Positions 4,048-39,552 of a DNA stretch of 64,000 bases are shown here, in pieces. Under the pieces are notes generated by a model. That model saw only the letters and a list, made by a program, of their open reading frames with translations, searched no databases and had not been told where the DNA came from. A program made the position numbers and the translations under genes. How positions within the stretch are numbered: position 1 is the stretch's first letter; each line of letters starts with the position of its first letter. The stretch is from Bacteroidaceae bacterium (lineage in GTDB: Bacteria > Bacteroidota > Bacteroidia > Bacteroidales > Bacteroidaceae). The DNA lies in NCBI GenBank assembly GCA_024699495.1, contig JAILPK010000014.1, positions 1 through 64,000 on the forward strand. Reading direction: 5' to 3'.

Positions 4048-4061
4048 GCCGCGGTTCGAGG

Positions 4062-4097
4062 GTTTAAGAGGTTTAAGAAGTTTAAGAAGTTTAAGAG
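4062..4097. repeat. 9-bp minisatellite GTTTAAGAR x4
   Basis: gtttaagag gtttaagaa gtttaagaa gtttaagag, read directly. Confidence 0.85.
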
Positions 4098-4325
4098 TCG
4101 AACGGCAAGCCGTTTTGGGTCAACAAGTTGAGCGGCCGTGGCCGCGGTTTGAGAGTTTAAGAGGGTTTAAGGGTTTCAAGGGGCCGGAGGCCTACATTTC
4201 GGCCGCAAGCGTCCTACATTTCGCTAATGCTACTTTTCGGCTTCGCCTACCTTTCGGCCAGGTGCAGCCGCTTGAATCTTGTATTCTAGCATTTCTAGAA
4301 CTACTTGCACCCCGCCTCGGATCCA

Positions 4326-4418
4326 TCGCGTCAGCCCAAATTGTAAGCGGTAAGCAGTAAGCGGTAAGCCCGTCGCGTCAGCCCAAATTGTAAGCAGTAA
4401 ATAGTAAGCAGTAAGCGC
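4326..4418. repeat. Direct repeat tcgcgtcagcccaaattgtaagc.. with GTAAGCRGTAAGC microrepeats
   Basis: Two copies beginning at about 4326 and 4373; a related reverse-complement copy lies at about 6188-6262. Confidence 0.7.
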
Positions 4419-4488: not shown

Positions 4489-4528
4489 AAAAAAAGTAAG
4501 TCGCTGAAATTCAGCGACCTACTTTTTT
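4489..4528. terminator. Long A/T-flanked hairpin downstream of tRNA-Lys
   Basis: aaaaaagtaagtcgctgaaattcagcgacctactttttt: inverted repeat with GTCGCTGAA/TTCAGCGAC core. Confidence 0.75.
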
Positions 4529-4533
4529 GGAAG

Positions 4534-4606
4534 TGATCCGTTTGGGGCTCGAACCCAAGACCCCAACATTAAAAGTGTTGTGCTCTACCAGCTGAGCTAA
4601 CGGATC
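4534..4606 (-). tRNA. tRNA-Lys (anticodon TTT)
   Basis: Minus strand GATCCGTTAGCTCAGCTGGTAGAGCACAACACTTTTAATGTTGGGGTCTTGGGTTCGAGCCCCAAACGGATCA; cloverleaf with CTTTTAA loop. Confidence 0.95.
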
Positions 4607-4750: not shown

Positions 4751-4972
4751 CACTTATGAATCAACCGCCGCCGCTTTGTCTTTATTCCTGTTGAAGCCTT
4801 TTCCGCTTATGTGGCAGTCTCCTCCGCCGCTTTGTCTTCATTCCTGTTGAAGCCTTTTCCGCTTATATAGCAACCTCCTCCGCCGCTTTGTCTTCATTCC
4901 TGTTGAAGCCTTTCCGCTTATGTAGCAACCTCCTCCGCCGCTTTGTCTTCATTCCTGTTGAAGCCTTTTCAG
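4751..4972 (-). repeat. ~53-56-bp tandem repeat, four copies, each re-encoding the C-terminal tail and stop of the adjacent AI-2E transporter gene
   Basis: CTTAT anchors at 4753, 4806, 4862, 4917, 4973. Minus-strand copies read NEDKAAEEVAT*, NEDKAAEEVAI*, NEDKAAEETAT*, NKDKAAAVDS*; the gene end is NEDNAEEEAAT*. Confidence 0.9.
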
Positions 4973-4973
4973 C

Positions 4974-6077
4974 TTATGTGGCAGCCTCCTCCTCCGCGTT
5001 GTCTTCATTCAGAATGAAGCGGCGGTAATAGGAAATCATAAGAGTTGTCACCGGGAGAGCTATGATCAGTCCGATGAAGCCCAGCAGATATCCCCATACA
5101 GAGAGCGAGAGCAGAATGACGGCGGGATTGAGTCCCATGGCGTTGCCCATAATCTTCGGCACGAGGAACATATCCTGAATACCTTGCACTACGGCGAAGA
5201 CGATGAGGGCGGGAATAAGAATCCACCAGAAGTTCTCCCCCGTGTCTGCCGCCTTCAGCAGAGCGAGCAGGATTGTGGGGATGAAACCCACCGTCTGCAG
5301 ATAGGGGACAAGATTCAGGAAGCCTATGAACATCCCGAGGCCGATTGCCATCGGAAAGCCGATGATGAGGAAGCCGATGCTGAAGAGCACTCCTACGAAA
5401 AAGGCTACTGTGGCCTGTCCTCTGAAATAAGAGTTCATTCCGCTCTCCACATCACTGACGAGCTGGGCCGCGAAATTGCGGCTCTGCTTCGGAATATATT
5501 TTATCCACCCCTGCGATATCTTCTCATAGTCCTGAAGGATGAAGAACATATAGAGGATTACGATGATTGAGCCCACGACCCCAATGACGAAATTGATTGT
5601 CCCCGCAAGGAAATCCCATACATATCCGATCACCGACTGAAGCGCATTCACCACATTCTCCTGGTGTATCAGAGTCATCAGCTCCTGCTGGTATTTGTTT
5701 CCGTATTCATTGAGAAACTGCTCAATATATGGCGCCACGTCTGTGCCTCCGAGATATTTGTTGCTGAACTGAGCCAGCAGTCCGCTCAGTTTTGAGAACT
5801 CATCGACAGTTGGGATTACCACGAAGAGAGTGACTACGCTGAGGGCGGCGAGCACAATGACAAACGCAACCACGCTAGCCAGCATCCGCCAATGCAGATG
5901 GCATTTATACTGCAGAAATCTCACCAGCGGATAGAGCAGGTATGCCAGAATCCATGCTATGAAGAAGGGCAGAAGCACCCCGCTGAGCATATCAAGCACA
6001 TATATGCCGCACACAAACAGCATAATATAACAAATGGCGCGGATAAAGCTGTCGAAAGTAATCGGTTTTCTGAACAT
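4974..6077 (-). CDS. AI-2E family transporter (PerM/UPF0118-like membrane protein)
   Basis: 367 aa multi-TM protein; GFPMAIGLGMFIGFLNLVPYLQTVGFIPTILLALL and VQGIQDMFLVPKIMGNAMGLNPAVILLSLSVWGYLLGFIG. Confidence 0.9.
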   Translation of the reverse strand: MFRKPITFDSFIRAICYIMLFVCGIYVLDMLSGVLLPFFIAWILAYLLYPLVRFLQYKCHLHWRMLASVVAFVIVLAALSVVTLFVVIPTVDEFSKLSGLLAQFSNKYLGGTDVAPYIEQFLNEYGNKYQQELMTLIHQENVVNALQSVIGYVWDFLAGTINFVIGVVGSIIVILYMFFILQDYEKISQGWIKYIPKQSRNFAAQLVSDVESGMNSYFRGQATVAFFVGVLFSIGFLIIGFPMAIGLGMFIGFLNLVPYLQTVGFIPTILLALLKAADTGENFWWILIPALIVFAVVQGIQDMFLVPKIMGNAMGLNPAVILLSLSVWGYLLGFIGLIIALPVTTLMISYYRRFILNEDNAEEEAAT

Positions 6078-16375: not shown

Positions 16376-16640
16376 ATTGATAGCTTCGCAGTTGACAAGT
16401 AAACGAGTTGATAGCTTCGCAGTTGACAAGTAAACGAGTTGATAGCTTCGCAGTTGACAAGTAAACGAGTTGATAGCTTCGCAGTTGACAAGTAAACGAG
16501 TTGATAGCTTCGCAGTTGACAAGTTGACGAGTTGACAGCTTCGCAGTTGACAAGTAAACGAGTTGACAGCTTCGCAGTTGACAAGTTGACGAGTTGATAG
16601 CTTCGCAGTTGACAAGTTGACAAGTTGACGAGTTGATAGG
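16376..16640. repeat. 31-bp tandem repeat (8 copies) made of GTTGACRA 8-mers plus CTTCGCA
   Basis: Unit gttgatagcttcgcagttgacaagtaaacga; starts at 16376, 16407, 16438, 16469, 16500, 16531, 16562, 16593; last copy expanded by additional 8-mers. Confidence 0.97.
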
Positions 16641-39362: not shown

Positions 39363-39420
39363 TACATCGAGGTGTATTTGCATTTACATCGAGGTGTATT
39401 TGCATTTACACCTCGATGTA
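39363..39420. repeat. Palindrome cluster B: TACATCGAGGTGTA x2 direct and one inverted
   Basis: 39363-39376, 39385-39398 (same orientation), 39407-39420 (inverted, TACACCTCGATGTA); TTTGCATT spacers. Confidence 0.9.
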
Positions 39421-39552
39421 TTTTATGGTATGCCTAAATGGGTTAAAATACGAAACAAGATGAGAAACTTTATAGGTTATGATATAACAATTCTAAGCCT
39501 GGTCTAAGCCGAAAAAGCCAACAGCAAATAAGGCAACAGCCACGACTAACAT

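Follow-up and report, generated by a model that had tools for sequence, protein, structure and literature searches.

The window analysed here, a stretch of 64,000 nucleotides from the genome of an uncultured Bacteroidaceae bacterium, contains a gene for an AI-2E family transporter (4974..6077, minus strand, taken from the list of open reading frames). Its 367-aa product bears an AI-2E_transport domain (PF01594, E 7.3e-52) and ends in ...YYRRFILNEDNAEEEAAT, the tail before the stop codon at 4974-4976 (minus strand) reading ...RRFILNEDNAEEEAAT. Orthologues of this transporter were found in 53 of 61 genomes. The next gene downstream encodes tRNA-Lys(ttt) (4533..4606, minus strand) and has a conserved promoter element, TACCTTTGC. 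This promoter-proximal element lies 328 nt past the transporter stop in the window, compared with 39 nt in the sister genome G015, whose transporter shares 83% amino-acid and 77% DNA identity with the window gene. On the other side of the tRNA, between it and another gene, intergenic short-unit repeats (GGTTTAAGA, GTAAGCAGTAAGC) occupy positions 4061-4416; other intergenic regions that we read in the same genome hold simple-word repeats of a similar kind with different sequence. The nearest named relatives are metagenome-assembled Bacteroidaceae and Prevotellaceae, several of them from ruminants, and, judging from that origin, the organism itself is probably rumen-dwelling.

Between the transporter and the tRNA, the only genes identified in its flanks, lies a tandem array, which Tandem Repeats Finder places at 4768-5010 (minus strand; span 243 bp, period 56, 4.4 copies, 93% matches, score 409). 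With imperfect units of 53-56 bp set head to tail, it falls within the ~10-100 bp range of minisatellites, and it begins inside the final ~45 nt of the transporter gene. The first unit, unit 0, is the homologous 3' end of the gene itself, including its stop codon (4974..5024, minus strand). Four copies follow on the same strand: copy 1 (56 nt, 4918..4973) encodes FNRNEDKAAEEVAT with a stop at 4918-4920; copy 2 (55 nt, 4863..4917), which shares the gene's own frame, encodes FNRNEDKAAEEVAI with a stop at 4863-4865; copy 3 (56 nt, 4807..4862) encodes FNRNEDKAAEETAT with a stop at 4807-4809; and copy 4 (53 nt, 4754..4806), the most diverged, encodes FNRNKDKAAAVDS with a stop at 4754-4756. The initial annotation had described four same-strand units of ~53-56 bp that each re-encode the transporter tail and its stop, and this description holds: the stop-to-stop spacings from the gene through copy 4 are 56, 55, 56 and 53 nt, the tail-frame translations are as quoted there, and the transporter tail aligns to its downstream DNA with a score of 59, as against a maximum of 27 among shuffled gene/downstream pairings (n=612). 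Identity is 91-98% among copies 1-3 and 80-84% between these copies and the gene tail over 45 nt, and every copy is set apart by its own substitutions and indels. Homology between gene and copies starts at GCTTCA, ~45 nt before the stop, and extends ~11 nt 3' of it, so that the stop codon lies within the repeat unit.

The array is restricted to this lineage. In a comparison using one genome per species, with the copy number of the window taken from one metagenome-assembled contig, 58 orthologous gene ends were examined, and a single one, that of the window's own gene, was followed by a copy of the tail. Among 139 genomes of the genus, array DNA was matched in no other genome save for a 30-nt match in G027, which falls inside the gene-end part of the array query. 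The sister G015 has no array, and its transporter tail, RRFVLEDNDEET, has L and EDN in common with the window gene (RRFILNEDN); the array copies, which read FNR..EDK (FNRNEDK), differ from both tails, and the gene tail is therefore the older state. That copies 1-3 are closer to each other than to the gene suggests one older duplication, after which the diverged copy was amplified. With ~80-84% identity between gene and copies, the first duplication is not fresh, so that, with two species compared, loss of the array in G015 keeps a small probability beside gain here.

Considering these relations together, we regard it as highly probable that the array arose through a neutral, lineage-specific tandem duplication across the stop codon, followed by expansion through slippage or unequal exchange. 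In this process, ~56 bp straddling the transporter stop (~45 nt of coding end and ~11 nt of 3' flank) would have been duplicated in tandem into intergenic DNA. Once the first copy had drifted away from the gene sequence, this altered unit would have expanded to four copies, either by replication slippage or by unequal recombination. As the old gene end is part of every unit, each would spell a near-copy of the tail and its stop; with translation ending at the first stop, the copies would be untranslated 3' DNA and the event would be tolerated as neutral or nearly so.

Arrays that span a stop codon recur in the same genome. Our survey covered ~580 kb in stretches (~22% of the genome, 432 called genes), with control stretches from congeners, from the order and from E. 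coli; genes were called naively by taking the longest ORF, so that their start positions are blurred. The scan of the 432 genes yielded seven gene tails followed by a significant copy of themselves and seven stop-crossing arrays; the head-side duplications that it returned concern mostly short, probably spurious ORFs. Besides the window, four genes in the ~580 kb are clear stop-spanning cases. At L039, a 158-bp duplication with 98% identity has duplicated the stop; at L040, a 93-bp segment including the stop recurs 213 bp downstream with 93.5% identity; at L091, an 84 bp x 2.1 array encodes PAPDSE[HQ]TS and a stop twice; and at L090, a 51 bp x 3 array is found. All three of the orthologous sites checked in G015 (those of L040, L090 and L091) are without an array. 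The copied stop of L090 is already out of frame, leaving an open frame across both copies. The 51-bp x 3 array, seen both at L090 (8518-11430, minus strand) and at L153, lies over the stop of a ~970-aa protein, with LSASKYLRIK as the read-through sequence.

Arrays with a period of at least 10 occur at 23 per 100 kb in the window's own genome and likewise at 23 in G015, at 14-15 in three congeners, at 3-11 in four families elsewhere in the order and at 1 in the E. coli sample. Among arrays with a non-coding part, five crossings of a stop and none of a start were counted, compared with ~18 crossings of each kind under random placement by the same rule, the start-crossing figure being approximate because of the naive gene calling. 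Arrays are avoided at gene boundaries, less strictly so at stops, and the weaker avoidance at stops fits the prediction from tolerance on the 3' side. We count the recurrence of stop-spanning duplication within ~580 kb, along with the repeat-rich genome, in favour of neutral duplication. The five stop crossings with no start crossing, the frame-blind differences between gene and copies (see below) and the out-of-frame stop of L090 give no hint that the arrangement has been selected for.

Repeats of other kinds were also encountered. The L091 gene (7850-8602, minus strand, contig C30) encodes an ABC-type ATPase with a ~45-residue low-complexity tail ending in SAEESAPSAEKSASSAEKPAPDSEHTS; its stop-spanning 84-bp array lies after the gene, and its orthologues in G015, G016 and G018 terminate just past the domain. 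The tail of this ATPase may have been born from tandem repeats. The core TTGATAGCTTCGCAGTTGAC forms an intergenic array of a 31-bp unit x 8 at 16377-16628 of the window and belongs to a dispersed repeat with 26 genome-wide matches at two mismatches or fewer, as against none for the reversed control pattern; it is also present in contigs C16, C20, C26, C32, C59, C78, C88 and C89 of the same genome, among others. Dispersed satellite families have been described as rare in prokaryotes (PMC6749651). A 22-bp repeat resembling ACATCGAGGTGTATTTGCATTT forms short arrays at 39363-39423 of the window and at 1926-2010 of L040, and thus occurs at at least two sites in the genome.

Three readings of the array had been offered in the initial annotation: replication slippage, spare 3' ends kept in reserve, and structured 3'-UTR RNA. 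The first, as slippage or tandem duplication, is supported, the second finds no support, and the third is favoured slightly by the fold of the whole array and disfavoured by its parts. If the array acted as a structured RNA or terminator, its hairpins would serve to stabilise or terminate the transporter mRNA or to shield the tRNA-Lys promoter, and the location of the array exactly between the transporter gene and that promoter would suit such a role. Together with the gene end, the array folds better than shuffled sequences (z = -2.8, 1 of 200 as good), but this value derives partly from pairing between gene and copies, which is expected of any such duplication. Single units are near random, with z from -0.8 to -2.0 and, for copy 4, +1.4; this last copy lacks the hairpin, so that no fold is kept by every copy, and the palindrome CTTCATTCTGAATGAAG of unit 0 is lost in the copies. 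An Rfam scan of the region returned the tRNA only, with no match inside the array, and a terminator scan gave no terminator-like site in the array, its one hairpin with a T-run lying outside at 4500 on the plus strand. Moreover, relatives function with 39 nt and no array at this position. We therefore consider a role as structured RNA improbable.

Tandem repeats are error-prone in short-read metagenome assemblies, and the copies or their number could in principle have been created during assembly; the genome is a draft (92 contigs, 86% completeness) whose nearest named relatives are themselves metagenome assemblies. The copies are nevertheless separated by distinct substitutions and indels, the array measures just 243 bp and sits within a 68.9-kb contig, 4.8 kb from the contig end, and comparable arrays of other sequence occur at further sites in the genome, all of which makes an assembly artefact very unlikely.

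The data also speak against the idea that the copies are kept as a reservoir from which the gene, once frameshifted or hit by a deletion, regains a near-equivalent tail, an explanation to which we give hardly any credence. Each downstream copy does provide a similar tail and stop, and, by sequence logic, a hybrid tail would result if a homologous deletion joined the gene end to a copy. However, when every 1-nt insertion, 1-nt deletion and 2-nt deletion was simulated over the last 147 positions of the gene, none ended in a copy tail: the shifted frames stop inside the gene or enter an unrelated frame of the array (for example RLPHKLKRLQQE before a stop). The proposal that a frameshift would swap in a copy tail is thereby rejected. 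Loss of the transporter stop would add 37 residues and terminate at copy 2, which is not a near-equivalent tail; that it ends there is an accident of 56+55 = 111 nt. Across the family the tail is also hypervariable and dispensable. Orthologues carry between 7 and 35 residues beyond the last conserved SYY, and several proteins end in RRFVLKE; tail length so variable, with several orthologues nearly tail-less, leaves hardly anything to preserve, and an array is absent from every other orthologue tested. At the codon level, where constraint in the copies had been suggested as a check, a comparison of the gene with copy 1 gives one, four and three differences at the first, second and third codon positions, respectively, and five of the changed codons are non-synonymous and one synonymous. 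Substitutions without regard to the tail frame, named in the initial annotation as evidence against a reservoir, are what this 1/4/3 spread displays, although the differences are few and the test is weak. The same spread, together with unit lengths of 53-56 nt, agrees with the frame-blind evolution of a non-coding minisatellite, subject to the same small number of differences. There is no sign of selection keeping the tail coding in the copies.

The array is of the minisatellite type, the product of a tandem duplication that crossed a stop codon; it is real, and its origin looks like a harmless copying accident of an ordinary kind. By itself it matters little, being a clean case of a tolerated stop-straddling duplication that leaves decoy gene ends untranslated. 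The repeat-rich character of the genome is the part that might merit a survey, as it points to a group in which the birth of repeats at gene ends could be followed across sister species, and in which comparison of these species would perhaps also reveal new protein tails derived from such repeats. More speculatively, the lineage might have unusually active intergenic tandem duplication and dispersed non-coding repeat families that continually create gene 3' ends, duplicating stops and, where the unit is a multiple of three, building low-complexity C-terminal tails such as that of the L091 ATPase; the transporter array would then be one snapshot of this activity. We put this broader proposal forward as a doubtful possibility.

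Several known systems resemble the array in part. MIRUs, too, are repeats at a gene boundary with a small reading frame abutting a gene, but they belong to a dispersed and apparently mobile family whose insertion at start codons serves translational coupling (PMC12548453), whereas the window units derive from the 3' end of the local gene and occur at one locus only. We rejected assignment to MIRUs, as the array has one locus in its own genome and elsewhere in the genus a 30-nt match only, and we likewise rejected a dispersed or mobile element, given the single locus of the array DNA and no exact match in viral contigs. A diversity-generating retroelement would also place a near-copy of a gene 3' end just downstream of the gene; here, however, several copies stand head to tail, and the target would be a membrane transporter, which is no known variable-target type. 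This candidate was rejected because the differences are not restricted to adenines, 3 of the 8 between gene and copy 1 falling at copy adenines. Searching the literature for VNTRs that overlap stops, and for tandem repeats in Bacteroidales of the rumen, retrieved nothing specific. The closest counterpart is the bacterial minisatellite or VNTR, with which the array shares head-to-tail imperfect units of tens of bp, a non-coding nature, lineage specificity and a unique sequence; it differs in starting inside a gene end and hence in duplicating a stop codon. Satellites have been reported to arise from DNA replication anomalies, and some species grow many unrelated ones (PMC6749651); a text search of that survey gave no mention of Bacteroid-, and the host here is an uncultured member of the Bacteroidaceae. 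The repeats of archaeal Borg elements are similar in that many independent, recent and fast-evolving arrays exist per genome and in that some arrays are missing at the matching site of a relative with ~83% identity (PMC9879509). Borg repeats are perfect and A-rich and reside in archaeal elements (PMC9879509), whereas the copies in the window are imperfect, rich in the purines A and G on their coding strand, and part of a bacterial chromosome.
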